From the NCBI GenBank assembly GCA_014871385.1, contig CM026425.1:3615561-3679560 (forward strand): a stretch of DNA of 64,000 bases, read 5' to 3'. Position 1 is the first letter of the stretch. Each line of letters begins with the position of its first letter. This document shows positions 11,987 to 59,538 of this stretch, piece after piece. The notes under the pieces were generated by a model. It was not told the DNA's origin. It ran no database searches and saw only the letters and a program-made list of their open reading frames with translations. A program made the position numbers and the translations under genes. Source of the stretch: Ceratodon purpureus (lineage: Eukaryota; Streptophyta; Bryopsida; Pseudoditrichales; Ditrichaceae).

Positions 11987-12033
11987 GCAAAAGATTGAGA
12001 TAGGGTTAGGAGGTCTTGCTATGTAGCTGTGTT

Positions 12034-14052: not shown

Positions 14053-14380
14053 CCAGCCTAAAGCACAAGGTTAAGCTAAGCTAATCGCAAATTAAGCAAA
14101 CTACAGCGCAAAACCAAATTAGGGTTTAAGGGTTTGTTGACCTGGAGCATGCGACTAAGTGGCCCTACCACCTCTGGCTTGGCCGCAATCCCTAATCACA
14201 TACTACCATGAATAACACGACGAGTGCCTGATCCTAGCTAATTCGGCGCTCAAACGAGAGGAAATCTCGCGGTCTCATCGCGTGCGGAGCGTGTTCAGGA
14301 GTCGAGCATCCGAAGCTAATCGCCCTTCCCTAACTTTACTGCATGAGGAGTAACAGAAATCTCTGGTTGTTACACTTTTC

Positions 14381-32166: not shown

Positions 32167-32887
32167 TGTTAGCTGGATTCTTCGGATGGAAGGTAGAGGA
32201 AAGGATAAACTAGTAATAATCTGGTAAACACTTGGATTTAGGGAGATAGATAGAGCGCTATGTCTTTAGAAGGGGGTTTAGTAGCTTAGTTAGATGCCAA
32301 GGGTGTCATAGTGGGAAGAAGTCGTTGAGACGTCAATGATGACCCAGGTCCCAGAGTCAGGACGTCAACTGCTAGGGTCTGGACAGTCCCGGGGAAGAAT
32401 AAGCGTTACTTCTGAGTTCGAGAAACTGTTAGGTTGGAGTAGAGAAAAGAAGCTATGGTGTCTGAGGAGAGAGAGAGATTCTTTAGGTGACACAGGGCAT
32501 GTGATCTCGCCCAGAGAGTCTTCTGGCGTCCTTAGAGTATGCAACGGAGTCGTCACAGTTTGAGGAACAAGCATACACAATAACGGTAGACAAAATAAGA
32601 CCAAGCAGCAAACACAGGAAAGAGTAATAGTAGTAGAAAGTGATCAGGTCCTTAGAGTCTGGCCAAGCGCCGGTATTACAAAAGGGGAGTCAGTGGGTGC
32701 CTTAGGCAAAAGGCCGTGGAACTGAACTACGGCGTCACTGCTATCAAAACTAAGCCGACTGTCTACACTTCCTGTCTATGATCTTTTTATACTATTCAGG
32801 TCGTCCTTGGAACTGCGAGTCCTCTCCAGTTGTTGCTGCCACCATGCCGTCTTAACTGTTAGTTGTAGCAGATTCCTTGCGGTAACA
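32167..32887 (-). repeat. Element II 3' LTR
   Basis: 721 bp, one visible difference from 40825-41545. Short frames inside it recur identically in the other LTR and are not genes. The polypurine tract is just inside at 32888-32902 (minus: AAGAGGGTAAAA). Confidence 0.95.
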
Positions 32888-32937
32888 TTTTACCCTCTTT
32901 TGGAGAGTGCAATCCGTCCGCGGATTGCCATGGTTTT

Positions 32938-34431: not shown

Positions 34432-34536
34432 GGTGGGGGGGCGATTGTTACGGCGGTGAAAAGCAAGGAAGTGTACGATATACGCCGTGAGGAAGGGGCC
34501 TATCGGACTGCGATACTCCGGGTTGCGGGTGTGATT

Positions 34537-37008: not shown

Positions 37009-40000
37009 ACTTGCAGCTTGAATGTATGGGTCGTTAAACGAGTCGTCAATGCTGTTTGAGTGGTATCCCTGGATAAATAGTCAGCCACAATGTGGCGTTT
37101 GCCAGGTACATAGACGACTTCAAAGTCGTATTCTAAAAGGATCATGATCCAACGGGCCACGCGACCACTGACAAGCGGCTGGTTTACCAGGTACGACAAA
37201 CTGTGATGGTCGACAATGAATCTAAATTTATTGCCCAAGAGATAGTGTCTAAATTTTTTGACAGCGTAGATCATAGCTAAGGCTTCTCGTTCAGTTGTCG
37301 AGTAGTTCCTTTCGGCAGGGTTAAGGAGACGGCTTGCGTAGGCCACTGGCTGATCATGCTTGCCTGTTACGTTTTGAGCGAGCATGACCCCAACGGCGAC
37401 ATTTGAGGCGTCGGTGTGCACATGAAATTGTTTAGTCCAGTCTGGTGCAATTAGGATAGGTGCATTTGAGTAGGCCTGTTTGATTTTGTTTAAAGCTTCC
37501 TGAGCCGTCGGCGTCCAATCCTGAGGGTAGCTGTATCGTGGATGATTTAAGGCAGTAATCGGTGCGGTTATATGAGCGAGCTTTTCAATGTATATTCTAT
37601 TGAACTGTGCTAACCCAAGTAATCGCTGGACGCCCTTTTGGTTAACTGGAGGCGTCATATTTAATATGTCTTGTATTTTGTCAGGGTCGGGAAGCTTGCC
37701 GTATTTGCAGACTATGTAGCCTAAAATTATACCTGCGAAAAATAAAAACATGCATTTTTCAACATTGAGGCTGACTCCGTTGGCTCTGCAGGCGTCGAAG
37801 ATTTGTCTTAGGTGGCCAACATGGTCTTGCACGGTGCCATAAACCGTGCCGTCGTTGAGGTAAATGCGAAAAAACTTCTTTAGATACAGGCAAAAAATTA
37901 ATTCCATTACCCGTTGAAAGGTCATCGGTGCATTTTTTGCGCCAAATGGCATGCGTTCAAACTGGTATGGTCCCCACTCTGTTGAAAATGCCGTCTTGTT
38001 TTTGTCATGATCGGCCATGGCGACTTGATAATATCCTGAAAAACAATCTAAAAAGGAATACATTTCATGGCCGGCTACTTCATCAATTATTTCTTCCATA
38101 TAAGGAAGGGGATAATGGTCTTTTTTAGTGGCCGCATTTAGCTTGCGGAAGTCTACACATATTCTAAGGGCGCCATTTTTCTTTGGGATAATCACCATGG
38201 GTGATAACCACGGGGCCGAGTCTACAGGCGAAATGAATTTGGCCTGTAGTAATTTATCTAACTCAGCTTTGACTTTGACGGCGTAGTTAGGGTTCATGCG
38301 GTATCGTCGTTGTTGCACTGGATGTGCATCGGGAACGAGATCAATGGTATGTTCTGCTAGGGAGCTAGGAATCCCCTTTAGATCCTCATGTCCCCAGGCA
38401 AAAATGTCCCTGTACTCTCTGAACAGTTTAATGGCGGCCTCTTTGACGTATGTGGGGGCCTCAGCATTAATTTTGATGTATTTGGGCTCTGTTGGTGTAC
38501 CTAGGTTAACCAATTCTACTTTGTCTTTGGCGCCATGGGACCAACCATTGACCACATGATTTTTTAATGATTGAACAGCGGGGGGAGCGTTAATTGTTAC
38601 GGGTTCTTGGATTTCCTTTGTAAAGTGTGCAGGAATGTCCATCTTTTCTGGTTCGGGTACCAGGCTTGCGAGATGTATTTCAGCTAGAGGTACTAAGTCA
38701 GGGTCGGCTTGGAAGACGAGTGCTTCCTGCTCTTGAGACAATCCCTGGAGCCAACTAGTACCTGCATGATTTCGTATTTGGTTTGCCCGCGCCCTGGTGA
38801 CGCAACTGTCGACCGGAATGACTATTGTTCGTCCATGTCTATGGATACGGATCTGATTTCTTGACCAATCATGCACGGCGTCCATGTCGCGTAACCATGG
38901 TCGTCCTAAGATTACTGGGAAATTACTTCGATCAGGCATTTCGATGACGACAAAAGTGGCGGGAGTCGTGACTTCATGTGTGGTGATAGCCACTGCGGAC
39001 AGTATACCCAATGGCGTCACTGGGGCGTCGTTGGCCATCCTTAGGATGAACTGTGCTGCTTTAGGAAAGGGTAATCTCATTTTTTCTCTTAACTTATTGC
39101 TCATCACGTTGACTCCCGAGCCACCATCGACCAGGACATTGGAAAGTTCGAATCGTCCTAATTGCATGTGTATGACGGCGGCGTCTGGGTCCATTGTCGT
39201 GGTGTTTACTTCTATGGTTACTGGTTCATTGGGTAGACAGGGTAACGACGCCTGTTGTAGGTATCTCTGGAGTTCTGGACTCAACTGAATTAATTTGGAT
39301 AGTGTTATGGTTACACTAGTGGTGTCAATAATATCCTGCAGGCTTGGATAACTGGGAGAAGTCTCTAGTTCGGCTTGGATGTCTTGGCGTATTTGATGTA
39401 ACCGGTCCCAGTGTTTTGGAGGGAAAGGTTTTCTATGTTCGACAACATGGTCGACTGGTTTTGCAACCTCGGCAGCTTTGGACCTTGTACTGACGGCAGC
39501 CGTCGTGATCATGGCGATTTTGGTTTCTCCCCCTGATACCTCAGTGAGGGTTACTCCTCCGCGGCGGGGTGGCATGGATTTGTTAGTCTCTGTGGGAGTC
39601 ATGTTGTGTGGTGACAAGGTTGCTGCCCATCGTTGTCGAAGAGTGGGACACTGGCTACGTCGATGGTGCAACGATCCGCACTCCCAACAAGCGTCGTTGC
39701 GGCTGGGTTGGAATGCGTCGACGTTGATCTCCTCAGTCTGCATGGCGGCCATGGTCGGCCTTGGACGTCGAGTATCGTCGACGCGTGCAGGGTTGTTGGC
39801 AAACCAGCACCGTCCCCCGTGGATCTTGCCAGAGGTGTTGCAGGGTCCAGTGGCAACCCGGACGTCAGATCTTGTTACGGGCAGGGGGAGTAATGGAGCT
39901 TGTAACCGATGTAAAGCTCCTAATTCACGACTGATGTCGATGGCAGCGTTGAGTATGTCTTGGAGTGTTTTAACACCCCGGATGACTATGCCTTGCTGGA

Positions 40001-40757
40001 TCCATGGTAACAAGCCCTTCTTGAACCATTCGCACAAGTAATCCTCCTCGGGTTTTTGGTTCAGTTTATCTACAAGTTGTTTGAACCTATCATAAAATTT
40101 ATCCACTGGTTCGTCCTTTTCTTGAGAAATACTGCCCAATGCTCTGAGGATTTCGGAGCTTGTTTTTAGTTTCCTGAATTTGTGTAAAGAACTGACCTCC
40201 ATCTCTTCCCATGTTGAGTGAGGGTGGTCTGTTTCAAAATCTATGTACCAATTGATGGGATTGCCTTGTAACGTAGTACCAAAGATATTCTGAAGGTCGG
40301 CGATGTTAGTGACGCCGTTTGTTCGAGCGATGACCCTGAATCTTCTTATGTGCCAGTCTGGGTCGCCAGAGTTGTCAAAAACTGGGTACGGTATCTTCGG
40401 TAGCTTCGCATGATGATCTTGACTTCCCAAACTCCGAGAGGTTGCCGCCGTCGGGTTTCCATGTGGTAAGGTAGCGGACCGCAATATTTCTTGAGGTGCT
40501 TGAGAAGCTTGGACGTCCTGGTCCTGCGGTGACGCTTCCATAGGTCCCGGAGTTCGGCTGGCTTGTATGTGCTGGTACTGCATGCTGAGCTGTTCGAGCT
40601 TAGCGTTGGTGGCTTCGTTTTTGGCGACCAGGTCGGTCATCTGCTGTCGCATCCATTGTAAGAATTCCCTGGTGCCATCTTGGTCGCCCTCGACGGTGGT
40701 TTCATCGTCCTCATTGTTTCTGGCCGCCTCAATGGCGGCTACCTTTTTAGGTGGCAT
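36957..40757 (-). CDS. Element II gag-protease-RT-RNase H polyprotein, 1266 aa
   Basis: It begins [18 protein letters not shown], 67 nt inside the 5' LTR. Gag (retrotransposon-gag type) covers residues ~120-290 with one CCHC knuckle, [14 protein letters not shown], near 355. The aspartic protease has DGGSG near residue 540. The reverse transcriptase runs ~790-1000, with [14 protein letters not shown] and [13 protein letters not shown]. Its catalytic box reads YLND near residue 965, where YLDD is expected, so one metal-binding Asp is Asn. RNase H follows (HTDAS near 1110, [12 protein letters not shown]). Length and order fit Ty3/gypsy. The Asn is encoded AAC after CTC, so a CpG-to-CpA transition would explain it. 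The protein is probably inactive in polymerisation. Confidence 0.92.
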
Positions 40758-40803
40758 GGCTTTACCTGATTATCACACAGCCTTTCGTTTCCTCAAATTT
40801 CCA

Positions 40804-40821
40804 TCCCCAGCATGGTCGCCA
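40804..40821 (-). promoter_or_regulatory. Element II primer-binding site
   Basis: Three bases inside the 5' LTR the minus strand reads TGGCGACCATGCTGGGGA, starting with TGG as needed to pair with a tRNA CCA end. I cannot name the tRNA. The first 12 bases match element III's site. Confidence 0.7.
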
Positions 40822-40824
40822 AAA

Positions 40825-41545
40825 TGTTAGCTGGATTCTTCGGATGGAAGGTAGAGGAAAGGATAAACTAGTAATAATCTGGTAAACACTTGGATTTAGG
40901 GAGATAGATAGAGCGCTATGTCTTTAGAAGGGGGTTTAGTAGCTTAGTTAGATGCCAAGGGTGTCATAGTGGGAAGAAGTCGTTGAGACGTCAATGATGA
41001 CCCAGGTCCCAGAGTCAGGACGTCAACTGCTAGGGTCTGGACAGTCCCGGGGAAGAATAAGCGTTACTTCTGAGTTCGAGAAACTGTTAGGTTGGAGTAG
41101 AGAAAAGAAGCTATGGTGTCTGAGGAGAGAGAGAGATTCTTTAGGTGACACAGGGCATGTGATCTCGCCCAGAGAGTCTTCTGGCGTCCTTAGAGTATGC
41201 AACGGAGTCGTCACAGTTTGAGGAACAAGCATACACAATAACGGTAGACAAAATAAGACCAAGCAGCAAACACAGGAAAGAGTAATAGTAGTAGAAAGTG
41301 ATCAGGTCCTTAGAGTCTGGCCAAGCGCCGGTATTACAAAAGGGGAGTCAGTGGGTGCCTTAGGCAAAAGGCCGTGGAACTGAACTACGGCGTCACTGCT
41401 ATCAAAACTAAGCCGACTGTCTACACTTCCTGTCTATGATCTTTTTATACTATTCAGGTCGTCCTTGGAACTGCGAGTCCTCTCCAGTTGTTGCTGCCAC
41501 CATGCCGTCTTAACTGTTAGTTGTAGCAGCTTCCTTGCGGTAACA
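40825..41545 (-). repeat. Element II 5' LTR
   Basis: 721 bp, nearly identical to 32167-32887. The promoter for the minus-strand RNA should lie here. Confidence 0.95.
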
Positions 41546-44328: not shown

Positions 44329-45146
44329 TGTGAAAGGAATATTTTTCTTACTCCTTCAAAAATAAATACTGTCCTAAAAACTCTCTGAAATCCTGCGAAA
44401 AATTCTGTACTGCCCCTGAAACTGCCCTGAAACTGCCCTGAAACTGTCCAAAATCCGGGTCCTAGATCTGAAACTGCCAACTTAGATCTACTCAATTCCT
44501 GATGGTATTTTCATAGATCTGATACATTTTTCTACTCTCCTTGGTCTGATCTACAATACCCACTCATTTAAACACCAGATCTACTGGACCCACCAGGTGA
44601 ATCCACTAACCTGGTCCCTCAAGCACTCATAACGGCAATTTCAGACATTTACACCCAATGTAATCAATTCCTTCCCTTTACTCACTGTAATTCCGTACAT
44701 GATTCTACTCCCTACTGATATCACTATCTGGACCCCCTAGAGTCCTGAAAACTGCTCTAACAGCATCCTCCTACAGTTTTACAACATGTCCTACACACAA
44801 ACTACCATCTGAGAGCTCTGAACTGAGAGGGAGAGAGAGAGAATGAGCTTCGCAGCCCCCTCTCCCACAACCCCATCCAAAACCCTAGCCGCCACCCCCA
44901 AAACCCTAACTGCCAACAGTTTTCATCCGACCACCAGATTTCATCCAACCACCAGATTTCATCCATCTGACAGTTTTCATCCATCTGGCAGTTTTCATCC
45001 AAAACAGGCAGTTTTCATCCAACAGAGTTACTACAGGGCAGGACAGTAACTTAACAGTTTACTGCCCCCCCCAGTAACTGCAGTTTTACTGCTCCCCTAC
45101 AATTTTACTGCCCCTCTATTCTACTACTCTAAATCTCCAGTTAACA
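44329..45146 (-). repeat. Element III 3' LTR
   Basis: 818 bp. It contains a cluster of TTTTCATCC-type repeats (about 44925-45020) and AAAACCCTA telo-box-like motifs near 44880. The polypurine tract is just inside (45147-45160; minus: AAAAGGGGGATAA). Confidence 0.95.
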
Positions 45147-45285
45147 TTATCCCCCTTTTAGTCTGCATCTGTTCTCAGATGCTCGGTTTTAAGTTTTATG
45201 GGGTTAACCAAAAAAACTAAGGTATCAAAAAATCAAAAACGAAAGTCCTACTGGTCCTACCAGTAATCTGGCCTACATCTACTGT

Positions 45286-48200
45286 CTAGCCACTAACTGG
45301 TGCCGCCCCTCCTGCTGCTGATGCTGGTCCCCCTGGTGCTGCCTCTGGTCCTAGTGGTGCTGGTACTGGTGGTACAGCAGGAGCGGTACCTGCTGGTCCA
45401 TCACCTGACTGAGATCCAATACCAGAAGTGGTCCCCAGGCCACTGCTGGAAGCCCCTCCATCATCCGCAAACTGCCCCCCATCAGGCATCTCCTGGTCCC
45501 CCTCATCCTGGTCATCCTCAGACCAGTACACAAAAGATGGGTAAGTCTCAGCAAACCTCATCAAATACCTGGAGTACCTGGCTTGGTCCTCTGAATAGGC
45601 CTGAATCTGGTCCAGTACCTGCTTCTTAGTGGTAGACAGCAGATGCCTGGTCAACCCCCTAGAAGCCTGAGTAGAACTGGCCTCAGCCAACTCCACCCTC
45701 TGCCTGAGCTGCTGGTTCTCCTTGGCCAGCCGATCAAAGTCTCTGAACCTGGCACTGGTCCTGGCCTCCAACTCCAATCTCCGTGCCCTGACTGCCTCTG
45801 CCTGGACCCCCTGATCCACCCAAGTCTGCCTCTCCCTGTCCTGGTCCTCCTGGAGTACTACCAGCTGGTGCTGAGCCTGCTGCAGCTGGTCAGTCAACTG
45901 CCGAATCTGCTCCTCCTGGGCCTGTCTGGTCGTCAACAACACTTGGTAGGTCGGTCCAGACCTGTCCTCCTGCCCCTGTAACATCTGCACCCGAGATGCT
46001 TGGGCCAATGCCACCTGCAACTGCTGGACCAACTGGTCCACCTCCTTGGTGATATTTTCCTGGTCCCCCATCCCTGCTGGTCCCGGCTGAATCCTGGTCC
46101 CTACCGAGCTTGTGGGAAAATCCACAACTGGCTCATCCTGGTGGTCCATGGGATCCTGCCCCTGTACCTGGTCCCCCACATCCTGGTCCTGGTGCTCCTC
46201 CTGAGGCTGGTCCTGGGGCTGGTCCTGGTACTGGTCCTGGTGCTGGTCCTCTGAAACTGGCTCCTCCCTGGTAGGTGTCGCTACTAACACCAACTCTGGA
46301 CTACTGGAAATCAGTACTGGACTGCTCACCTGGCCCCTCATCCTCCTGCCCTGATGTCCTCCTGCTCCTCCTGGTGTTGTGACACACCTCTCACCCTCCT
46401 CCAAGGAATCTGGGCTGGTCTCCCGATATCTGGGGTTGTTACCCATCCTCCTCAGCCTCTTGAACCTGCCCGGCTGCTCCCCTGGTCCCGGAGATACTAC
46501 GGCCTTCCTCTTGCCCTTCCTCTGTCCGGGTGAAGATGAAGACTGGCGCTCCACTGAAGTGGCCTGGTCCTCCTCCTGCCTGGTCAGCTGAGTCTCAAAC
46601 CCCTCTCCATTGGCCACATCTGGTGGTAGCAGTCCTGCTGGTCTGTCTGGTGTCACATCTGGTGGTCCAGCACTGTCATCCTCCTCCTCACTGGAGCTCA
46701 CCTGGGGGGCTGGATCCACATACTCCTCATCATCCGGGAACCAGTTTCGGAGCAATGCATCCATCAACTCTGCCCCCTTGATCTCTCTGGTCTGGCTGGT
46801 GTGGATCCGGATCAGTAGCCTCCTCAAGCTGGAAAGTATAAGGGGGGCCCAGTTGTGGTCTCCCTTCCTCACAGCCTGGTACAAGTTCTCCAGTAGCTCA
46901 TTGCTGGCATACTGGGAAGTCTTCTTCACACACATGATCTCCACCAGTGCCTTGACCCGCTCCTGGTACTGCTCATCAAACCCCCTGATCTTGGTCCCAT
47001 CCGTGGTGTGGTCTGCCCTGGTCAACCCAAACATGGTCATATACTTCTTCTCCAGGGTAGTGCCGCTCTTCGGAACTGGTGGTGTCCTGGTCCCCTCAAT
47101 CCCCAAAGCCTGCTGTATGGTCCATGCTGTAATCTCGACTGGAATACCCCTCACTGTGGCCCGAATCGGCATGGAATACTCAATCTTCTCCCCCTTGGTG
47201 TACTGGAACCCCTCCACCAGGTCTGCTACCAGCTCTGTGCGTGGTGCTGGCCAGGTGTACTCATAAAAAGACCCGAGACCCACCTGCTCTGCCCAGTCAC
47301 TATCCTGAAGGTCTCTCCATCCCTGCCAATGCTTCAAGGGAAGAAAGGTGAGTTGAATGGCTCTGTCTACCTTCCTCTCAACTCTGGTCCTCCTAGGAAC
47401 TCTGGCCATGGGGTTGGTGAACTTCCTCCTGGTGGTGTTCCCTGGTCCTGGTCCCTGCTCCCCTGGTGCTGGCCCTGGTCCCTGCTCCCCTGGTGCTGGC
47501 CCTGGTCCCTGCTCCCCTGGTGCTGGCCCTGGTCCCTGCCCCCCTGATGCTGGTCCTGGTCCCTGCTGCCCTGGTGCTGACCCTGGTCCCTGCTGCCCTG
47601 GTGCGGGTCCTGGTCCCTGCTGTCCTGGTGCTGGCCCTGGTCCCAGCTGTCCTGGTTTTGGTGCTGGTCCCTGTTGCCTTGGTGCTGCTGCTGGTCCCTG
47701 CTCCCCTGGTGTTGGTGCTGGTCCCTGTTGCCCTGGTGCTGGTCCCTGCTGTGTCGGCTGTGGAGGTTCCTGCCCCTCCATCTGCTCTAGGTCCATCTCC
47801 TCCTGGTGTGAAATCACACTCGATCCCTGTAAGTAAGGTCGCAGGTCCCCCTTGACTGCAGTTCTTCTACTGGATGTAGGAAACTGCTGGTCTCCTGAAC
47901 CTGCACCCCCCCTGGTGTCCCAACTTGCTCCCTGCCTTAGTTGTTTTTTGTTCATTTTTAATTTTTCTTTTCTTTTTAATTTTTTCTCTTGCTCCACTCT
48001 TCCTCTGGTTTGCACCTCCTCTTCTGAATCTCTCCCTTCGCCCCAATCCTTAAATGTCAATACTGAGGCTTCCCTTAAAACTGCCCCCGAACCCCTTGTC
48101 GAGATTCTCCTTACTGGTCTTCCTGCTCTAACCCTTATTCCTGCTGTCGCTTCCTCTCGGGCTGCTGATTTACTGCTCCTGTTATCCCTTCTATGCCCCT

Positions 48201-49704
48201 CCGATCCCTGCCTAACTGATCCTGTCCCTCTGCCTGCAGCCCTCAAAGCACCCGGAATTCTGTATGGGCGGTGCCTTACCTGGTGTCCCGGCTGTTGCTC
48301 GATGGAGCGCTGGTTTACCCTGCTTCGGCTCTGGTCACCTTCTTCTCTGCTGTCGGCAAATGCGGCCCTGCCTATCTCTCCTCGTACCGCCCAGCTGCTA
48401 TCGCTGGCTCCCCTCTCGCCCAAGCTCGGATCTTCCTCTTGTGTCGACTGTCCGCTATCACTTCGCGGCTGTAATCCCCGCACTGTCTCCAATTGCCCCG
48501 CTCCTTGCTCCCATTCAACCGCTGGCTGCTGCGCTTCCCTGATGGTCCGCTCGCTGCCCTCGCCCGTTGCTCCTCTCCCGGCGTCTAGCGACTGTTGTCC
48601 GCCACCGCCCGATGCTCTTCTCTCGGCGCCTAACGACTGTTGTCCGCCACCGCCCGTTGCTCCTCTCCCGGCGCCTAGCGACTGCTGTCCGCCACCGCCC
48701 GATGCTCTTCTCTCGGCGCCTAACGACTGCTGTCCGCCACCGCCCGTTGCTCCTCTCTCGGCGACCAGCGACTGCTGTCCGCCCCCGCCCGTTGCTTCTC
48801 TCTCAGCGCCTAGCGACTGCTGTCCGCCACCTGCAGCTGACTGCCTAGCTCCTCCGCCGGCTGCTCCTTCTTCGGCGCCTACCAACTTCAATTCCTTACG
48901 GCCCAACTGCTGTCGATACCGACTGCTCGCAGCAGGTCTTCCGACTGCAAACCCTAGCTGCTCTAACCCTCGGCTTCCGTGACTGCTTGGTTCCGCCTGC
49001 TTCCCTTGGCTTCGGCAGTCGCCTAGCGCCCCTTCGCCTCGACTGCCTTGGTTGCTGGGCGTTGTGGGTTGCTGCTCTCGGCCTTGGGGACCACCAAATG
49101 CTCCGCCTCTTCGGCCTTCCTGGCTGCTCCCAGCCGCCTGATGCTGCTCCCGACTCTGCCTACCTCCTCGCGTGGCGCCCTCCGCTCTCCAAGGCTCTCG
49201 CCCTCTGCTGCTACCGTAGCCCAACTCCACCTGAGAGCCCCGGCCCGACTCCCTTGGTGCTCCCCCGATTCCGACTTCAAAAAGACCTTGGTCTTGGGGC
49301 GAGCTGAGGAAGACCTCCCCTGGCCGACTCCTTTGCTGCCCTTGTTCATCCCTCAGGGATGAACTGCCCTGGCCCGATGGATGAAACCCTGGCCTAACTG
49401 TAGGCTGTTGCAGTCTCTGGTCCATCCCTACTCCTTGGCAGTCGCTGCTGGCCCTTCCTACTTCCCTATCTAACTGGTCCCAACTAACTTGACTCCAGCT
49501 CCCTTCAGCTCCCGGCTTATATCTGTTCACCCTGCACAGCCAATACCTAAAACTGCTGTTTAGGGTTAGCCGCCTGTTTTCATCCACTGTGGATGAAATC
49601 TGTTGACTGGATGAATTTTCTTCATCCTCTTCCTTTATTGGCTGCCCCCCTAGCTGTAACATCGCCTCTGCCACGTGTCGCTCTTGGACTGGAATGACCT
49701 CCAT
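45286..49704 (-). CDS. Element III 3' ORF: repeat-rich protein with plant-transposon-like domain and coiled coil, 1472 aa
   Basis: Residues 1-~640 are low-complexity and Gly/Gln/Arg-rich, including GGGGQQSLGAER-type repeats (~288-388). Residues ~648-755 are a QQGPGPAPG repeat array. Residues ~768-1000 form the only globular-looking domain (WAEQVGLGSFYEYTWP, IRATVRGIPVEITAW, IQQALGIEG, ALLRNWFPDDEEYVD). It resembles the 'putative plant transposon protein' domain in extra ORFs of Athila-like elements; this assignment is by eye. Residues ~1050-1200 are acidic or basic and disordered. Residues ~1208-1370 are a Gln-rich coiled coil. The C-terminus is Gly/Ala/Pro-rich. It shares pol's frame: pol ends in TGA, then two codons, then this Met. 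It could be made by readthrough, reinitiation or a spliced RNA. The role is unknown; a structural or envelope-like position is only positional analogy. Large frames on the opposite strand here are shadows. Confidence 0.8.
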   Translation of the reverse strand: MEVIPVQERHVAEAMLQLGGQPIKEEDEENSSSQQISSTVDENRRLTLNSSFRYWLCRVNRYKPGAEGSWSQVSWDQLDREVGRASSDCQGVGMDQRLQQPTVRPGFHPSGQGSSSLRDEQGQQRSRPGEVFLSSPQDQGLFEVGIGGAPRESGRGSQVELGYGSSRGREPWRAEGATRGGRQSREQHQAAGSSQEGRRGGAFGGPQGREQQPTTPSNQGSRGEGALGDCRSQGKQAEPSSHGSRGLEQLGFAVGRPAASSRYRQQLGRKELKLVGAEEGAAGGGARQSAAGGGQQSLGAEREATGGGGQQSLVAERGATGGGGQQSLGAERRASGGGGQQSLGAGRGATGGGGQQSLGAERRASGGGGQQSLDAGRGATGEGSERTIREAQQPAVEWEQGAGQLETVRGLQPRSDSGQSTQEEDPSLGERGASDSSWAVRGEIGRAAFADSREEGDQSRSRVNQRSIEQQPGHQVRHRPYRIPGALRAAGRGTGSVRQGSEGHRRDNRSSKSAAREEATAGIRVRAGRPVRRISTRGSGAVLREASVLTFKDWGEGRDSEEEVQTRGRVEQEKKLKRKEKLKMNKKQLRQGASWDTRGGAGSGDQQFPTSSRRTAVKGDLRPYLQGSSVISHQEEMDLEQMEGQEPPQPTQQGPAPGQQGPAPTPGEQGPAAAPRQQGPAPKPGQLGPGPAPGQQGPGPAPGQQGPGSAPGQQGPGPASGGQGPGPAPGEQGPGPAPGEQGPGPAPGEQGPGPGNTTRRKFTNPMARVPRRTRVERKVDRAIQLTFLPLKHWQGWRDLQDSDWAEQVGLGSFYEYTWPAPRTELVADLVEGFQYTKGEKIEYSMPIRATVRGIPVEITAWTIQQALGIEGTRTPPVPKSGTTLEKKYMTMFGLTRADHTTDGTKIRGFDEQYQERVKALVEIMCVKKTSQYASNELLENLYQAVRKGDHNWAPLILSSLRRLLIRIHTSQTREIKGAELMDALLRNWFPDDEEYVDPAPQVSSSEEEDDSAGPPDVTPDRPAGLLPPDVANGEGFETQLTRQEEDQATSVERQSSSSPGQRKGKRKAVVSPGPGEQPGRFKRLRRMGNNPRYRETSPDSLEEGERCVTTPGGAGGHQGRRMRGQVSSPVLISSSPELVLVATPTREEPVSEDQHQDQYQDQPQDQPQEEHQDQDVGDQVQGQDPMDHQDEPVVDFPTSSVGTRIQPGPAGMGDQENITKEVDQLVQQLQVALAQASRVQMLQGQEDRSGPTYQVLLTTRQAQEEQIRQLTDQLQQAQHQLVVLQEDQDRERQTWVDQGVQAEAVRARRLELEARTSARFRDFDRLAKENQQLRQRVELAEASSTQASRGLTRHLLSTTKKQVLDQIQAYSEDQARYSRYLMRFAETYPSFVYWSEDDQDEGDQEMPDGGQFADDGGASSSGLGTTSGIGSQSGDGPAGTAPAVPPVPAPLGPEAAPGGPASAAGGAAPVSG

Positions 49705-49713
49705 TACTCCTCA
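49705..49713 (-). other. Single TGA between two in-frame ORFs
   Basis: The minus strand reads ATA TGA GGA GTA ATG: pol ends at this TGA and the next ORF starts two codons later without a frame change. Reading through one stop would fuse 2618 and 1472 aa. No known readthrough signal was recognised by eye. Confidence 0.85.
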
Positions 49714-52700
49714 TATTACTGCTGGCTGCTTCCTTTCTTTCTCTTCTGCTCCTTTTTTGATTGCTTCCTCTTTTTCATTATTTTTTTCTTTTTGATTATT
49801 TCCTCTTTTTTCTTTATTTTTTTCACTAATTTCGCCCTCAGCCCCTTTGTCTACTTCCTGGTCCCTCTTCAACCTGCTCTGCTGCTGTGGGACTTCTTCC
49901 TGCCCCTCTTCATTTGTTCTGTCCTGGTCCTGTCTGGTCCTGTCTTGATGGTCTTGACGTCTGTCCTGGTCCTGTCTGGTCTTGTCTTGTTGGTCTTGTC
50001 TGGTCCTGTCTTGCTGGTCTTGATGTCTGTTCTGGTCCTGTCTGGTCCTGTCTTGCTGGTCTTGTCGTTTGTTCTGGTCCCTGGTGTGTCTGATGTCCTG
50101 GTCCTGTGTTCCTGGTGTATGTCTCTGCCTGGTGCTGGTACTGTCCTGGTCACTCAAACTGGTCCCTTCCTGGCCTGCTTGGTCACCCGAACTGGTCCCA
50201 CCCTGGCTTGCTTGCACACTATCCTCCTTTTGCTGTTCGACCAGTCCCTTGGTCGAATCACCTGGTGTTACGGTAACAAGCTGGTCCTGGTCATAGAACC
50301 TGTAAGGCTTCAACTTGTTGATGTTGACAATCACCGGGTCCGGCTCAAAATTCTGCACTGAAACCAAAAGAGCAGTGTTGTTAGGCAGCCTGTACTGGAC
50401 CCTGTAAGGCCCAAACCACCTGCTCTTGAATTTGCCCACATGCTCCTTGTGCCCCTTGGGGTACCAGAGTACATAGTCCCCAATCTGAAAATCCTTCCTC
50501 TTGTAATGCTGCTGGCTCCAGAGTGACCTGTTCCACTGTCGGGTCCCTGCCTGCTCCTGTGCATCCTGTCTGGTGGTATCCATCTGCTCCAGGTCTGCTA
50601 TCCTGGCCTGTAGTACCCTGGCTGGTGTATAATCAGCCTCCATACTGGTCCTCCTGGTCGGAACTAAGTATTCCGTGGGCATCAATGGATGGAGCCCATA
50701 CACCAGTTGAAATGGTGTATACCCGGTGGTCACCTTGAAAGCAGTCCTGTAGGAAAACAGCACTGTAGGCAGGTGTTCATCCCAATCTGTCCTCTTCTCA
50801 TTGACCAGTTTGCTGAGCAGTTGGCCAATTACCTTGTTGGTCGACTCTGCCTGGCCATTACCCTGGGGGTAGTAGGTCGTAGAAGTCCGGTGCTGGAGCA
50901 GAAAATGCTCCACCAGGTGCTCAATTGCCTCATTGATGAAATGAGAGCCCTGGTCACTGACCAGTGTCAATGGACACCCGTACCTGGTGAGTATCTGCTC
51001 ATACAGGAACTTAGCAGTTACTGCTGCCGAATTTGTCCTTAACGCCCGGGCCTCCACCCACTTGGTAGCATAATCTGTAGCCACCAGTATGTACCTGTTA
51101 CCTGACCGGGCAGCCATAGGCTTGACTGGTCCTATAAAATCCAGCCCCCATTTCATGAATGGCTCTGCTGGCATACTGGTCACTAGGGTGGCCAGTCCAG
51201 TATTCGCCATGCCTCCAACCCTCTGACACCGGTCACAGGCCTTACAGTACTCAGAAACATCTCTGTGTACTGCTGGCCACCAGTACCCGGCATCCAATAT
51301 TTTCCTGGTGGTTATCTCCTGTGAAAAATGACCACCAGCCGCTCCATAATGCATCTCCTTCATCACTGTTTCGGCCTCGACCGGGTCCAGTACTCTCCTG
51401 AGGACCAGATCCTGGCCCCTCTTGTGCAGTACCCCCCGGATCCGGGTGTATGGCAGTGCCTTGAGGACCAGTTTCCGCTGCTCCTCCCTAGTCAGATCCT
51501 GCCGTACAACACCAGTTTTAAGGTAAGAATTGACATCCTCTAACCATTCCGGCTTCACATAAAACAAACTGGCATCACTGGTCTGGTCCTCAACACCAGT
51601 TGCTGGTTCTCCATTGGGCAGTCTGGACAGTGCATCTGCTACTCCATGGTTCTTCCCTGGCTTATACACCACAGTGAACTCAAACTCCTGAAACAGCAGC
51701 AGCCACCTCGCAATCCGGCCCGATACCTGCGGTTTGTTGACCAGATACACCAGTGCCATATGGTCAACATAAAAAACAAACTTATTGCCCAGCAAATAAT
51801 GTCTATACTTGTTCAGAGCATAAACCATAGCTAAGGCCTCTCTTTCAGTAGTACTGTAATTTTTCTCAGCAGAATTCAAAAGTCTGCTGGCATAAGAAAT
51901 CGGCTGGTCACACTTCCCTGTTGGGTTCTGGGCCAGCATCACCCCGACTGCAATGTTCGAGGCATCAGTATGCACATGAAACTCCAGGTCCCATCTGGGG
52001 GCAATTAGGATCGGTGCATTCTGGTACTGCTCCTTGATCTTCAACCAGGCCTGCTCACACTGGTGGGACCAGATAAAGTCCTCCGTCTTCCTCATCAGTC
52101 TGGTGATGGGCTCCATGATCTGGGCATAGGCCTTGATGTAACACCTGTTAAACTGGGCAAAACCGTTAAAAACCTGGATATCAACCGGTTTCTGGGGTCT
52201 AGGCATTTTTTCAATGGCCTCAATTTTCTTGGGGTCCGGAAACTTACCTTCCTGGGACACAATATGGCCCAGGATGATACCAGAAAACACCAGTAACGCA
52301 CATTTTTCCGGGTTCAGGCTTATGCCATACTCCCGACATTTCTGGAAACACTGCCTCAACTTGACCAGATGACTGATTATGTCACTGTAAACACTGAAAT
52401 CATCCAAAAACAGTTTCATGAATTCACCAATAAAATCACGAAAAGCACGGTTTACTGCCCTCTGGTAGGTCGGTGGAGCATTCTTCAGCCCGAATGGCAT
52501 CACCACCCAGACAAAGGCCCCCCAGTCAGTCACAAAGGCAGTCTTGTACCGGTCCTCTGGTGCTATCTGAATCTGGTGGTACCCGGAGTACCCGTCCAGA
52601 AATGAATACTGCTCATGTCCTGCCACAGAATCCAACACCTCCTCAGTAAATGGCAGTGGGTAAGGATCCTTTTTAGTAGCAGCATTCAACTTTCGAAAAT

Positions 52701-55700
52701 CAATGCAAATTCTCAATTTTCCATTTTTCTTAGGCACAATAACAATGGGTGATAACCAGGTGGCATCCTCCACTGGTGCTATGAACCCGGCCTGGAGCAG
52801 TTTGTCCAGATCCTGCTTCACAATACTGGCGTAGTTCGGATTCATCCGATATCTGGCCTGGTGTGCTGGTGGTATGTCCTTCTCCAGCTCTATCCTGTGC
52901 TGTGCAATCGATGGCGGGATACCCTTCAGGTCCTTGTAGGTCCAGGCAAACACATCCTTGTATTCCCTGAACAGGGCTTCTGCCTCCCGGGCCTGCTCTG
53001 GACTGATATGGGCATTAATTCGCACATACTGGGGGTCCTCCTCTGTCCCCAGATTCATCTTCCTTAGCTGCTCCGACTCCGGTAGGGTCCAGGCAGCGAT
53101 CTTCAATTTCAACACCTTCTCCCTGGCTGGTGTCTCATCTACCTCAATATCCCCCTCCTCAAAGGTGTAGAATTGGTCTGGATAGGCTCGACCTGGTCCC
53201 CCCTCCTGGTGCTCTGACTGGTCCTGGCTCTGGTCCTGGTCCTTGGACTGGTCCTTCTTTTGGCTCTGGGCCTTGCACTGGTCCTGGTCCTGGTCGTGCG
53301 CCTTAGACTGATCCTGGTCCTTGGACCTGGCCTTGAACTGGTCCCTCTTCTGGTCCTTTACTTTTAACTGGTCCTGATCTTGATCCTTGGACTTGAACTG
53401 GTCCTGATCCTGATCCTTGGACTTGAACTGGTCCTGATCCTGGTGTTGTGGCTTGAACTGGTCCCGCCCCTGGTCCTTTAACTTAGACTGGTCCTGGTCC
53501 TTGGCCTTGTACTGGTCCTGGTCCTTGGCCTTGTACTGGTCCGGGTCCTGGTCCAGTCTTGGTATAGTGACTGTCCCGATGGCCATTAGATCCTGTTCTG
53601 TAGCCAACCATCTTGCTTCCTCCTCGTCTGTTAGTCCTTCAGTGAAATTATAACAGACCAGGACCTCAGGCAGTTTTGGCCTGGGCCCCTTCCTCTGACT
53701 GACTGAGACAGTTTTTACTGTCCCATTACCTCTGATTGTAACCAGATTATTACCCCAGTCATGATTTACTTTAGCATCAATCAACCAAGGACGACCTAAC
53801 AGCATACTATAGGCTTCATTGACCTCCTTGTTTTTAATTACAGTCAAGGTGATAAGGTAAGGGATACCATGAATGTGGATCTTCACATTTCGAATCAGCC
53901 CCACCGGATCTACCACTGTCTGGTCTGCCATTCTCAATCTGAAGGGTGCAGGCTGGGGGTTCTTCAATCCCAGTCGCTTACGCTCCTCTTCAGTGATCAG
54001 GTTGACACCTGATCCCCCATCCAGCAGTACATTGTCCAGGGTCCCGTTGCCAACCTGCACAGTCAACACCGGCAGTTCCCTGTCAACATCTATAGCCAAA
54101 CTGCTAATTAAATCCGGCTTACCTGGTGTACTGGTCCTTGGCTTCACTGCTGGTGTCGGGTCTGGTCGAGAATTCTTGTCTGGTCCCAATTCCGGGAACA
54201 GGTGTGCCTTGACATAATCAGTGATGTTGGGGGCTACCTTCAGTAACTGCCCCAAAGACACTGTAACTGGACTGTCCAGTATCTTCCTGCCCACCAGTTT
54301 TGTGTAGTACTGCCCCTGGTCCCCCTCTATACTGGTCCCTACCGGTACTGCTGGTCCAGGTTGCTCAATCTTCATACTGTAATCAAGGGCATCAGAATCC
54401 GGAAATCCTGCCCAATCATTGTCCAGTAAATTTCCTTCAACTGTGTCCTTATCTTCTGGTGGTTGAACTGGTTGGGCCTGCTCTGCTGCTCTAGCCTCCT
54501 CTTCCTCCTTGAGTTGAATTTCCTTCAGGGTCTCTATCATAGAGTTCCTGAGTCGTTCCTCCTCCTGCCAGTCTTCTCTGGTCCTGACCTTCCTTGGTTC
54601 TGGTACCTTCGACTGGTCTTCAATTGGTGGCAGTCCTGCCTTCCGCCTCTGGGCCCTGGTCATACTGGCCACGTTTACCTGGTCCTCCGGATCCTCCAGT
54701 AGCTCAATCTCTACGTTGTTTACCTGGTGGTCCGATTTCTTGGTTCCCTGGTCCCCTTGTGTCCGGAACTGGTCCCACTGGGCCTTCAGAGGGCAGTTCC
54801 AGCTCCTATGCCCTGTTCCACCACACAGATAACAGCATTCAGGCTTGTCTCCAAAACTACCTTGCTGGCCATTACCTGCCCTGGTGTTAGATGACCGCTG
54901 GTACCCCTGGTTGTAGTTACTGTTGTAGGTGGCTGTTGGCTTTGGGGCAGACACTTCATTCACCCCTACTGGTTCCTCTCCTTCTTTCTTCATACCTGGA
55001 CCCCTCTGATTTGCTGGGTTGTACCAGCAGTCACGATCTTCATGGCCCAGTTTCTTGCATGTGCCACAGATTCGCCTAGGAGCATCCTGGCCTGGTTCCT
55101 TCCTGGTCACAGTTGCTGGCTTGCTGGTGGTCTCCACTTTCTTGACTTCAATCTTGGTTGGCTTGCCACTTGAATCGGTGCAGTTTTCTTCACACCTCAG
55201 AGCAGCATCCACCAGTTCTGTCAGGGTCTTCACTGGTGCAATACTGGTCGTAATCTTGATGTACTCCAGTAAACCGGCCCTGAAATTTGTAATTCGAAAT
55301 CCTTCTCCAGGATCTGACTGCAGACACTTGATCAGGGTCATAAACCTGTCATAGTAATCCTGCACCTTCTCCCTATCTGCCTGCTTGAAGGACTTCAACT
55401 CCCTGTAAACTGCTTCATCGGTTGTCTGGTCCCTGTACCTTCTCCTAAAGGCTGCCTTGACTTCTTCCCATGAGCAGTAAAGGTGACTCTCCAAAAAATT
55501 CTCATACCAGGCCCCGACCTTATCCAGTAAGGTGGTACCCATCAGGTTAATGATAACCTGCTCATCAGTTTCCCCATTGTGCCACAAAGTGCGCTCAAAC
55601 TGACGAATATGAGCATCAGGATTTGTACCTTCCTTGTACTTGGAGTATGGCAGTGGCTTCCTATGTGCCATACTTACTAGTCCTGATGCTGGTAGTCCGA

Positions 55701-57567
55701 CTGGTCCTCCAACTGGTAGGTATACTGGTCCTCTAGCTGGTGGGTAGCCCGGTCCTGTAGCTGGTGGGTATACTGGTCCTGTAGCTGGTGGGTAGACTGG
55801 TCCTCTAGCTGGTGGGTAGACTGGTCCTGTAGCAGGTGGGTAGACTGGTCCTCCAACTGGTGGGTACACTGGTCCTCCAACTGGTGGGTACACTGGTCCT
55901 ATACCTGGCCTTCCATCTGGTGGGTATACTGGTGGTATACCTGGCCTTCCAACTGGTGGGTAGGCTGGTGGTACTGGCCGGTCTGGATAACTGCTGGCTG
56001 CTGTTGCCACTGGTACTCCACCCCCCACTGGTGGTCTGGACCCATATGATGTTCCTCCAACTGCCTCTGCTGGTCTTCGGAATCCTGTCCCTGGATTGGT
56101 GGCTCCTGCTCCCACCTCTGCTCCCCCACCTGGCCAGTACACTAACTGGGATGCCTCTGGCTGGCATAGATCACCAGTCAGGTGGTCCACATAGGTTGAT
56201 GATGCTCCTCCTCCTCCCGATGGACCTGCTGGTCTTGTCTGGTGGTGGAAATGGCTCTCTGCTGGTCCCTGGGGTATAGCAGTTGCTGGTACTGGTACCC
56301 CCATCACTTCTACTGATTTTGCTGGACCCGATCTTCCACCTGGTACCTCACAATGTTCATATCCTGGCCACATATCCTTCTGCTGGGCCTGTAATTTCTG
56401 ACTTTCCTCCCTCAACACCTCCTGCCACGTGTACATGGTAGACTGGCGGGTTGCTTCTTGTTTCTCTTCCTCCTTTTTCTTCTGGTCCTCCAATCTCTGG
56501 GCCTCCTGCCATAGGCGCATGGCCTCCTGGCGTAGCAGGTCCTGCTGCATGGCCTCCTGCTTCTCTGCTGTCTGCTTGATTTCTTCCCTCCTTTGAGCCT
56601 CCTGCCAGGATCTAAGGGCTTCCTGCCTCTGTCTCTCCTGGTCCTGCTCCTCTATCCTCTTGGTCTCCTGCCATAGCCTCATGGTTTCCTTCATTTGAAT
56701 TTCTTCCCTGTTCTTCTGCTCCCAAGCCTGCATGGTTTCCTTGAACCTGGTGGCTTGTCCTAGCTCCTCCATCTGGTGTCTGTACACCTCTTCCATGGTC
56801 TGCTGGTCCCTTCTGGCCTGCTCTGCCTGCCTCCTGGCCTGCTGCCTGGCCTTAATCTGCTCCAGCTGTCTCCTATCTTCTTCTTCTTCATCCTGCTCTG
56901 GTCCTTGGAACTGGTCCTGGACGAACTGGACTGTCTGCTTCCTGGTGGTCTGCTGTCCTTGTCTGCTGGTCCTGGTCAGGTCTGAAATGGGTACTGCCTC
57001 TCCTGAGGCCCTGTCTTCACTCCTGACCTGGTCCAGTTTCTTCCTCAGTGTCTCCAGCGTCTTCCCCAAGTCTCCTGGTGTCTGTATCCCTGGTCTTGGT
57101 GTACTAGGTCGGCTGGTGTTTCTCCTCTGCTCCTCTTGAAACTGGTCGTATGCTACTGCTGTCTCCAGTTGAGGATTCCAACTGTGATGGACGTCTCCAC
57201 CTCCTGGTCTTGGAAACTCCCTTCTGCTGGTCCTTGGTGATGGCATTGTGCCATCATACTTCCTGATTTCTTCATCCTCCTGCCAGTTCTTGAAACTGGG
57301 ACCAGGTTCGCCCTTGGCTGATCCGGTCCTCCTGCTTACTCCAAGCAGTGTCTCCTGGCTTGAATTTTCGCCCACCAGGTCCATGTCAATCAAGTCCCTG
57401 GTCTTTCCTTTGGCAATGCTCTCCTCAGAACTGGGCTGCCCCCCCATGTTCCTGCCTGGTTCAACTGCTGCTCTCTGCTGCTCCCTGAGCTCGTATCTGG
57501 CCAGCCTCTCTGCTGCCTGTCTTCTAGCCAGTTCTTCCTTGTCCCACCCTTGGTAGTCGCCTTCCAT
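49711..57567 (-). CDS. Element III gag-pol polyprotein, 2618 aa
   Basis: The N-terminal ~540 residues are Gln/Glu/Arg-rich coiled coil ([12 protein letters not shown]-type repeats). Residues ~546-629 are a collagen-like PVYPPATG repeat. Gag spans ~645-800 ([14 protein letters not shown]), with two CCHC knuckles: [14 protein letters not shown] near 835 and [14 protein letters not shown] near 910. Protease has LLDGGSGVN near 1180. A DQ/K-rich repeat spans ~1336-1451. Reverse transcriptase has [14 protein letters not shown] and an intact FLDDFSVY near 1720. RNase H has HTDAS near 1865. Integrase has HHCC (~2060-2105), [15 protein letters not shown] near 2203 and GQAES. The C-terminal ~150 residues are another DQ/TRQ repeat plus a Lys/Glu-rich tail. 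Typical Ty3 polyproteins are 1400-1700 aa, so roughly 900 residues are added repeats. No stop or frame break is seen. Confidence 0.93.
53215..53560 (-). repeat. DQ-repeat array between protease and RT
   Basis: Irregular tandem units of about 15-30 bp built on GACCAG (Asp-Gln), alternating with Lys codons ([12 protein letters not shown]). They lie in a normally short linker, so they may be tolerated as disordered spacer. Confidence 0.85.
55680..55930 (-). repeat. PVYPP-repeat array in gag N-terminus
   Basis: About ten units of ~24 bp (GGACCAGTATACCCACC core) encoding GPVYPP with GRPG/ATG/ARG spacers, giving a proline-rich collagen-like rod. Confidence 0.88.
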
Positions 57568-58702
57568 GATAGGGCAGTTACTGCTCCTCCCTCCTGGTCC
57601 TTCCTGCTGGTGGTCTTCTGGTCTGTCTGCTCCTCCAGTAAGTCGAGTCTGCCCTTCCAGGTGATCTCTTGGGTAGGTACTGTGGATCTCTGTCCCAGTC
57701 CTCCTCTGGTCCCTGCCGGTACTAGTCCTCCGTACTCCTGGTCCCTGTCAGTACAGCCGTCTGCCACCCCAGTCTGGTCCTTTGTGGATCTGTCAGTAGC
57801 TACTGCTCCTACTTAGGTTGGTCCTAATTGCCTTTTAGGTTTTCAAGGTTATCCTTAGTCTAGAATTATACCAGATTTCTTAGCAATACAGTTTTATAGT
57901 GTTTTCCTAAAGGTCTGTCCTGGACCCTCCAGTACTGCCTTTACAGTTTTCAGTGAAACTGGTCCAGTTTTTCACTGTCCTGGTCCAGTTTGACTGTTTT
58001 TTTTCTAGATCTAGTGATTTTTAGGTCCAGTTTCCTTCCTAGACTCCTATCACTGGTCCCTAGGTTCCTTTCCTTCCTTTTTCCTGGTGTTCATTTTTAC
58101 TGCCACATTTTTACCTTAATTTTTTACTGCGCCATTTTTTACCTCATATTTTTACTGCATCGTTTTTACTGCGATTTTTTGACTACTCTGTTTTTTACCT
58201 CATTTTTTTACTGCGACATTTTTACTGTCTGCCCATTTACGTAGACAGCAGATCTATGACTGTTTTTTACTGACTGCTCCGTTTTTTACTGACTGCTCCG
58301 TTTTTTACTGCTGGTCATACATTCAGCCAACTGTTCCTTGCAATGCAACCTCAAATCAGTGGGAAACAGCAACTTACCTGGTCCTGGCTGACTATCCCCC
58401 TTTTGCTATAGAGCTGCCCTCAGCTCCAGAGATGCGCCTCCTCTCCAGCTGGCTGTTGACTCGTCCCGACTGATCCTGTCTGCACTGCTCCTGGTGTCAC
58501 GAATGAAACGCCTCCCATGACTGCTTCAAAAACTCTTACTGTTCCAGATCTGGTCACAGTAACTGCCACTGGTGCAGATCTGCTTCCTGGAACTGTCAGA
58601 TCTGCTCCCCCCAGACCCTGGATCGCCACTGTACCTGTCACCCCTGGAACAGTACGAATCTGGTACTGTCCTGGTGTGTGCAGCTAGAGCCACATGGTTT
58701 GA
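57568..58702 (-). other. Element III untranslated leader (~1.15 kb)
   Basis: Lies between the primer-binding site and the gag-pol start. It has only short frames. It carries many CTGGTCC/GGACCAG copies (for example near 57592, 57708, 57738, 57774, 57963, 57980, 58378) and runs of ACTG(C)NNTTTTT-type repeats (58100-58310). This is where packaging signals would be expected. Confidence 0.7.
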
Positions 58703-58720
58703 ACTGTTGCATGGTCGCCA
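58703..58720 (-). promoter_or_regulatory. Element III primer-binding site
   Basis: The minus strand reads TGGCGACCATGCAACAGT one base inside the 5' LTR. The first 12 bases equal element II's site. The tRNA is not identified. Confidence 0.7.
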
Positions 58721-58721
58721 A

Positions 58722-59538
58722 TGTGAAAGGAATATTTTTCTTACTCCTTCAAAAATGAATACTGTCCTAAAAACTCTCTGAAATCCTGCGAAAAATTCTG
58801 TACTGCCCCTGAAACTGCCCTGAAACTGCCCTGAAACTGTTCAAAATCCGGGTCCTAGATCTGAAACTGCCAACTTAGATCTACTCAATTCCTGATGGTA
58901 TTTTCATAGATCTGATACATTTTTCTACTCTCCTTGGTCTGATCTACAATACCCACTCATTTAAACACCAGATCTACTGGACCCACCAGGTGAATCCACT
59001 AACCTGGTCCCTCAAGCACTCATAACGGCAATTTCAGACATTTACACCCAATGTAATCAATTCCTTCCCTTTACTCACTGTAATTCCGTACATGATTCTA
59101 CTCCCTACTGATATCACTATCTGGACCCCCTAGAGTCCTGAAAACTGCTCTAACAGCATCCTCCTACAGTTTTACAACATGTCCTACACACAAACTACCA
59201 TCTGAGAGCTCTGAACTGAGAGGGAGAGAGAGAGAATGAGCTTCGCAGCCCCCTCTCCCACAACCCCATCCAAAACCCTAGCCGCCACCCCCAAAACCCT
59301 AACTGCCAACAGTTTTCATCCGACCACCAGATTTCATCCAACCACCAGATTTCATCCATCTGACAGTTTTCATCCATCTGGCAGTTTTCATCCAAAACAG
59401 GCAGTTTTCATCCAACAGAGTTACTACAGGGCAGGACAGTAACTTAACAGTTTACTGCCCCCCCAGTAACTGCAGTTTTACTGCTCCCCTACAGTTTTAC
59501 TGCCCCTCTATTCTACTACCTTAAATCTCCAGTTAACA
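58722..59538 (-). repeat. Element III 5' LTR
   Basis: 817 bp, matching 44329-45146 with about five substitutions and one 1-bp indel in a C run. It should hold the promoter. Confidence 0.95.

Follow-up and report, generated by a model that had tools for sequence, protein, structure and literature searches.

We describe a short word, GGACCAG, that has spread through the internal sequence of element III, a young 15.2-kb Ty3/gypsy-type long terminal repeat (LTR) retrotransposon on the minus strand of a 64,000-nucleotide stretch of the Ceratodon purpureus genome (hereafter the window; positions are counted from its first letter unless a contig is named). The word is strongly biased to the sense strand, is private to one clade among the element families read, and was gained at dispersed sites by substitution in place. 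A second family carries a different word. These patterns point to a nucleotide-level force that has written a clade-private word into each element.

Across the whole window, GGACCAG occurs 122 times on the two strands together, against 9.7 expected from dinucleotide shuffles. The internal region of element III (45147-58717; 13,571 bases) holds 109 sense and 4 antisense copies, where 500-base local dinucleotide shuffles predict 5.9 and 0.6, respectively, and the frequency of the word on the sense strand, noticed in the initial annotation, is thus borne out. Measured against whole-region shuffles, open reading frame 1 (ORF1) has 63 copies (3.4 expected), ORF2 has 37 (2.35) and the 5′ LTR has 1 (0.04); the corresponding counts are 1 (0.69) for element II and 2 (0.84) for the region of element I, which is of the long interspersed nuclear element (LINE) type. 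The leader, analysed as 57568-58717 on the minus strand (1150 bases), carries 8 copies against 0.20 (whole-region shuffle) or 0.47 (local shuffle), confirming that this region of about 1.15 kb is dense in the heptamer; the accompanying statement that no protein is made there extrapolates from the lack of any ORF of at least 150 amino acids on that strand.

Within the coding sequence, where 100 of the 109 sense heptamers lie (9 are non-coding), synonymous-codon shuffles gave mean counts of 4.0, 1.9 and 18.2 for the three codon frames of ORF1, against 14, 11 and 38 observed, and of 5.6, 0.5 and 5.4 for those of ORF2, against 19, 4 and 14 observed. Every frame therefore exceeds the null with protein and codon usage held fixed, and the comparison proposed in the initial annotation, by frame and region against dinucleotide and codon shuffles, yielded an excess throughout the leader and the frames. 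Its picture of amplification in all three frames holds for the counts and needs two qualifications: 63 of the 109 words sit in tandem arrays, leaving 46 dispersed, and the core encoding reverse transcriptase (RT), RNase H and integrase (50350-53192, minus strand) holds just 3 heptamers on each strand.

Sister subfamilies were located through an RT search of the genome (362 Mb in 151 contigs; a single genome), in which 94 of 2277 candidates were scored; A2, A3 and B2 were picked by their RT, and family B was met by chance. A2, with an RT 94% identical to that of element III, carries 8 heptamers over a stretch of 5.27 kb that holds 55 in element III, and its arrays are shorter or missing; three A2-type copies have 5, 5 and 7 heptamers in the same stretch of about 3 kb. 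A3 (RT 97% identical) is intermediate in word number between element III and A2, with 15 and 20 heptamers in about 3 kb against 39 in element III. The alignment of element III with A2 comprised 4175 columns, 74% identical, after arrays, gapped columns and poorly aligned columns had been dropped, as they were from all gain, simulation and mismatch analyses; 24 of the 56 element III heptamers in the A2 alignment were gapped, mostly within arrays. The retained columns contain 22 element III words against 1.76 expected under context-free substitution from A2, with a maximum of 6 in 400 simulations, and no 7-mer was more extreme than GGACCAG. With A2 derived from element III instead, the count was 6 against 3.8 expected.

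Words present in element III only, in A2 only and in both numbered 16, 1 and 5 (17, 1 and 5 under a second filter), counted without column-wise polarisation by family B and in an alignment whose low-complexity gag part limits site-by-site history. The leader accounts for 4 of the 16 gains and ORF1 for the other 12, which occupy all three frames and in 11 cases alter the amino acid (for example, LEE to LDQ and VAD to GPD). The flanks of the gained words remain homologous to the sister sequence right up to the word. Because some 17 words were gained in place, in the leader as well as in three frames and mostly with an amino-acid change, slippage alone cannot account for the dispersed words. Slippage, one of the options originally offered, inserts new copies beside old ones; this fits the arrays, which look like products of tandem duplication, and fails for the 16-17 dispersed gains, which arose in ungapped homologous columns. 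The synonymous-codon shuffles and the in-place gains likewise support the argument that selection on protein is insufficient to explain how one word comes to lie in the leader and in all frames. A combined alternative, in which slippage is joined by selection favouring purine-rich composition and disordered repeat proteins (D-Q, G-P and R-T), and no nucleotide force is needed, can draw on the heptamer arrays, most of which encode low-complexity peptides, and on a sense strand with 61% purines. Nevertheless, we regard it as improbable: the leader count (8 against 0.2-0.5), the excess over synonymous-codon shuffles in every frame, the indel-free gains and a synonymous preference in the conserved enzymes (see below) contradict it for the dispersed words.

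The privacy of the word became apparent in family B, represented by an element nested in opposite orientation within an element III copy (L014, L032; C3:24036173-24048837). Its RT is 81% identical to that of element III, and both of its LTRs are present (460 bp, 99.57% identical). In 11.7 kb, GGACCAG occurs once against 2.0 expected; family B has its own word, AGCCGAC(T), with AGCCGAC found 25 times against 1.1 and its core CCGAC 88 times against 17. Words of the AGCCGAC type spell ADL repeats that family B carries where element III has a DQ array. B2, a sister of B with an RT identity of 92%, shares this core (GCCGAC 9 against 0.36 in 2 kb), and CCGACT was the top 6-mer when B was compared with B2 (9 against 1.5 expected). 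Since family B lacks enrichment of the heptamer and has its own word in the same linker, GGACCAG is not a general gypsy signal; it is private to one clade among the families read, and another family shows the phenomenon with a word of its own. In element II and the LINE, neither word rose to a similar degree: the highest ratios (GGACCAG 2 against 0.7, AGCCGAC 2 against 0.45) rest on counts of two, and CCGAC, GTCGG, ACCAG and CTGGT were all within about twofold of expectation.

Two further origins were considered in light of these families. The words might be secondary primer-binding sites that capture the primer tRNA, given that GACCA is part of TGGCGACCATGC (58709-58720, minus strand), which begins one base past the 5′ LTR end of element III and which we take, from the established anatomy of LTR elements, to be the primer-binding site (PBS). 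The same 12 bases also adjoin the LTR in element II and in family B; an identical PBS in three families with different words or none contradicts a PBS or tRNA origin, which we consider extremely improbable. Splicing was set aside as a general cause on the argument that the element III word ends in CAG and the family B word does not.

Synonymous shuffles of the enzyme cores were used to examine the words at silent sites. ACCAG was the top 5-mer in element III (23 against 8.3), with its reverse complement CTGGT at 20 against 9.6; CGACT (18 against 5.0) and CCGAC (19 against 5.8) were the top two in family B, with GTCGG, the reverse complement of the core, at 10 against 2.6. In element II, the top 5-mer was unrelated and scored lower. 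Antisense cores were raised in wider counts as well (CTGGT 40 against 10 in element III, GTCGG 23 against 8.5 in family B). The letters that flank the core in the full word are missing around these antisense copies, the GG extension among them in element III (family B was analysed unmasked for arrays). We therefore do not propose a single strand-symmetric, double-stranded motif, the core being enriched in both directions yet its antisense copies lacking the full-word flanks, and these counts decide for neither strand model. The full word itself is biased 109:4 to the sense strand, and the element III LTR (821 bases) contains one copy where about 6.6 would be expected at the internal density. 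Sense bias and the single LTR word thus speak more for a function in the internal part of the genomic RNA than for one in the promoter.

VANDALs are Mu-like DNA transposons. By analogy with VANC, their anti-silencing protein, the word could be a putative DNA site at which an element protein, with the ORF2 product as candidate, strips methylation from DNA of its own family. The evolutionary style is alike, with short family-specific motifs, tandem arrays and fast turnover described in the VANC reports (PMC5735166, PMC10398659), and enrichment of the 5-mer core on both strands, the presence of the core in the family B LTR (CCGAC 2 against 0.09) and the divergence of ORF2 would suit such a role. 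The conserved part of ORF2 (46669-47382, minus strand) is 38% identical between element III and family B while the RT is 81% identical, which indicates a fast-evolving domain. Nevertheless, the whole heptamer favours the sense strand, and its left extension is missing from antisense cores; the element III LTR promoter, an obvious target, has one heptamer (ACCAG 1 against 0.6, CTGGT 4 against 1.3); VANC motifs are reported from non-coding DNA, and here 100 of 109 words lie in ORFs; and ORF2 has no Pfam match above cut-off. We consider this DNA-level explanation unlikely.

Our preferred reading, which we advance tentatively and which takes up the RNA-level option of the initial annotation, is that the word serves as a self-recognition address on genomic RNA, read by the element's own protein. 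A force on nucleotides rather than on protein has pushed the internal sequence of element III toward GGACCAG, with ACCAG as its core: tandem duplication produced the arrays, and base substitutions, recurring in place, put the scattered copies into all frames, the leader and, as the core alone, synonymous enzyme sites. Repeated many times on the sense strand, the word would address the genomic RNA to a reader, for which the Gag zinc knuckles and the fast-evolving ORF2 product are candidates through putative binding, and each family could thereby package or handle its own RNA among many co-resident relatives. Selection would be the force, RNA the target and an element protein the reader. The reading predicts own-family preference, with the element III protein favouring GGACCAG(T) and the family B protein favouring AGCCGACT. 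Extending it, we suggest with comparable caution that lineages may write a private address word across their whole internal sequence, forming a self/non-self code by which the proteins of each family would recognise their own nucleic acid amid dozens of relatives, and which would move on to another word as lineages diverge.

Below this RNA reading and above the VANC-like DNA motif, we rank a functionless autocatalytic drive, a possibility of somewhat lower probability. During reverse transcription, the growing strand would mispair with the commonest local word, copy a few bases and return, so that a common word overwrites near-matches, slippage adds arrays, and each lineage ends up with a runaway word of its own. 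Such a drive would account for the arrays and for a word that is private, sense-biased, present in all frames and the leader, and kept out of constrained enzyme code. Gained sites also begin further from the word than independent substitution would give (at least two mismatches in 13 of 17, against 41% expected), but the proportion among all changed 7-mers is 63%, close to the 13 of 17, and mismatch number decides neither for nor against patch copying. Against the drive, the right edge of the word is sharp and the flanks keep the sister sequence up to it, and the LTR, copied by the same enzyme, holds a single word.

Further evidence came from 12 other element III copies, found in the genome with one array 21-mer containing the word; three of them were read in part. 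They are 94.7-97.0% identical to the window copy across aligned parts (high-scoring segment pairs, HSPs, of at least 88% identity and at least 400 bases) and hold 31-115 GGACCAG per copy in the stretches read. The initial annotation had asked whether relatives might keep the peptides and lose the heptamer. These 12 close copies keep the word, a retention that is not independent of the array pattern used to find them; A2 has far fewer words, and family B has no heptamer enrichment. With 1-3 matches of the array 21-mer per genomic copy and with broken, overlapping HSPs across the arrays, array copy number seems to differ between element III copies, as a drive would allow. Of the 766 singleton changes in these copies, 2 create GGACCAG and 30 destroy it, which is what undirected mutation would give. 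Singletons thus rarely make the word, and mutation visible among copies is not its source; this speaks against a drive to the extent that singletons are informative, as they may be mostly post-insertion host mutations. The ratio of element III-only to A2-only words (16:1) differs from the singleton ratio of gain to loss (2:30; Fisher test, P=7e-10), a comparison that we take as no more than supportive, its first class being unpolarised site by site with B.

Several results weigh against the RNA self-recognition reading. Enrichment of the 5-mer core on the antisense strand is not predicted by a role in RNA only, and the family B LTR contains the core of its family. Comparison of element III with the A2-type copy L040 gave GGACCAG 6 times against 0.9, only 10th among 7-mers (ACCAG was the top 5-mer), and comparison with two A3 copies gave 10 against 5.4 and 3.9, ranking 95th and 57th. 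When word columns were compared with matched columns in the window copy and the 12 others (columns with at least 8 sequences, sites chosen by the commonest allele), shared variants were 0.034 against 0.049 (P=0.12) and singletons were equal; P values of 0.001 and 0.005 obtained by choosing sites on the window copy were discarded as an ascertainment artefact. Older shared variants leaned toward gains relative to singletons without reaching significance (8:25 against 12:70, P=0.28). Word columns that are not more conserved and a nonsignificant lean to gains keep a functionless self-reinforcing process viable. Local unpaired probability equalled that of same-composition words (0.465 against 0.470 at 46 sites in element III, 0.438 against 0.456 at 25 sites in family B), and RNA accessibility was rejected as an explanation. 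Privacy itself rests on two clades with a private word, with one family B example read. Finally, 26 listed genomic clusters of the word, set against nine RT places, fell near A2 in 6 cases, near the two element III copies in none and elsewhere in 20, so that the word also gathers at sites outside the elements read; this check covered the first places listed, without the block at a known element III copy on C2 and later places.

The clusters came from a genome-wide pattern of three GGACCAG with gaps of at most 30 bases, which matched 1238 times against 191 for the reversed control, overlaps counted. None of the RT places checked lies close to the dense clusters at C1:28756886-28756934 and C2:225776-225944, which might be non-autonomous elements with the word, truncated copies or simple repeats. 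In favour of the RNA self-recognition reading, element III has 31 ACCAG against 28 and 25 in the two A3 copies, which are 90% identical to it; decay from A3 predicts 19.0 and 16.9, and the 31 exceed all 300 simulations in each case, which looks like turnover at a kept number.

Element III has the features of a Ty3/gypsy element: an LTR pair, a target-site duplication, a PBS and a polypurine tract. The 5′ LTR (58722-59538, minus strand; TGTTAACTGG...CACA ends) has a BLAST bound of 58718, the next bases matching the target-site duplication by chance, and the 3′ LTR lies at 44329-45146 on the minus strand (BLAST bound 44325). The pair is 99.27% identical across 822 columns; TTGGT at both outer sides is read as a 5-bp target-site duplication, and the polypurine tract AAAAGGGGGATAA precedes the 3′ LTR. 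Within the leader, positions 58372-58380 read as a good splice-donor-like sequence, CAGGTAAGT, and the aligned A2 site reads CAGGTATGT.

ORF1 (49711-57567, minus strand; 2618 amino acids) encodes gag-like, protease-like, RT, RNase H and integrase parts, with Pfam domains in the order RT, RNase H, integrase expected of pol (RVT_1 at residues 1611-1760, RT_RNaseH 1860-1962, Integrase_H2C2 2064-2117 and rve 2135-2234). Two CCHC-like knuckles in the gag-like part (residues 831-848 and 911-926) and the protease-like part gave weak Pfam matches below cut-off. Its minus-strand arrays comprise a PVYPP/GPVYPP array with a 24-base unit (55699-55973), in which the heptamer reads GGA CCA G; the DQ array between protease and RT (53193-53554), with 21 heptamers in 362 bases reading G GAC CAG; and RQDQ, TRQDQ and similar arrays near the C-terminus (49891-50214). 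ORF2 (45286-49704, minus strand; 1472 amino acids), with its 37 heptamers in three frames, includes a 27-base array encoding QQGPGPAPG (47441-47745, minus strand), a 21-mer of which matches 1-3 times in each genomic copy. No Pfam family above cut-off was found in ORF2, and structure prediction for its conserved domain gave a predicted local distance difference test (pLDDT) score of 34, an unusable fold. The stretch 47750-49130, in the N-terminal half of ORF2, yields no HSP of at least 200 bases in several copies whose identity elsewhere is about 95-97%, and it therefore looks hypervariable. The stop separating ORF1 from ORF2 (window 49690-49735) is found only in the window copy; the frame is open in 12 of 12 others, and two other copies have single open frames of 4119 and 4180 amino acids. 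The family therefore probably makes one gag-pol-ORF2 polyprotein of about 4.1 thousand residues.

Two further elements lie in the window. Element II (32167-41545) represents a third gypsy family, with LTRs of 721 bp (99.86% identical) and the PBS common to element III and family B; its third ORF (32938-34536) has weak Pfam matches only, these being partly coiled-coil-like, and GACG-type words are mildly raised without a comparable private word. Element I (7679-14070), of the LINE type typical of plants, encodes endonuclease, RT and zf-RVT domains, with a DUF4283-like first ORF just under cut-off.

If RNA self-recognition is correct, the words touch on how LTR elements package their own RNA amid close relatives and on why related families stay separate, and a clade-private word that can be seen in sequence and counted renders both questions testable. 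If the drive is functionless, a clear case remains of a lineage-specific oligonucleotide spread by in-place substitution through coding and non-coding sequence, which would bear on the origin of low-complexity proteins and codon bias in mobile elements.

Among the titles and abstract openings of the open-licence papers searched, we found no description of a clade-private word spread through an LTR element. The DNA uptake sequences of Neisseria and Pasteurellaceae are short lineage-private words that mark self across coding and non-coding DNA; they differ in belonging to bacterial chromosomes and DNA import, with no retroelement involved. Dispersed packaging signals of RNA viruses are degenerate stem-loop motifs. 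They resemble the present case in that one short motif recurs in many genomic-RNA copies, coding and non-coding (PMC6281560), and element III has many genomic-strand copies (109 sense, 4 antisense); its word differs in being a 7-8-mer that is repeated almost exactly and is not predicted to favour unpaired sites, local unpairedness at the element III and family B sites matching controls rather than showing a defined structural context. Retand elements (PMC11963269) are plant Ty3/gypsy elements with an extra ORF beyond pol, an internal region of about 10 kb or more and, downstream of pol, tandem repeats that are family-specific and have no assigned function. Their domain-bearing extra ORFs are antisense and nearly always have a TRP28 domain, they are reported only from Eudicotyledons and Liliopsida, and dispersed words go unmentioned in the passages considered here (PMC11963269). 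In contrast, the main extra ORF of element III is sense and has no TRP28 match, and none of the five antisense ORFs of at least 150 amino acids in 46610-50361 matched TRP28 (PF04195) at E<=1.

The closest likeness in evolutionary style is to the VANDAL/VANC system of Arabidopsis, in which, according to two reports, family-specific motifs of 8-9 bases in tandem repeats turn over quickly between relatives and go with an element-encoded anti-silencing protein (PMC5735166, PMC10398659). VANC is also cited in a 2026 study of LTR elements, which leaves open a methylation role for the extra ORFs of two LTR lineages (PMC12844716). GGACCAG in element III and AGCCGAC in the ADL repeats of family B are likewise short, family-specific and partly tandem. 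VANDAL motifs, however, are reported from non-coding regions, with binding demonstrated (PMC5735166, PMC10398659); element III is an LTR retrotransposon, and its words occupy coding sequence in all frames and synonymous sites, with the full word biased to the sense strand. Should the RNA self-recognition reading hold, words and readers would evolve together in the manner of VANC/VANDAL, though on the scale of a whole retroelement genome.

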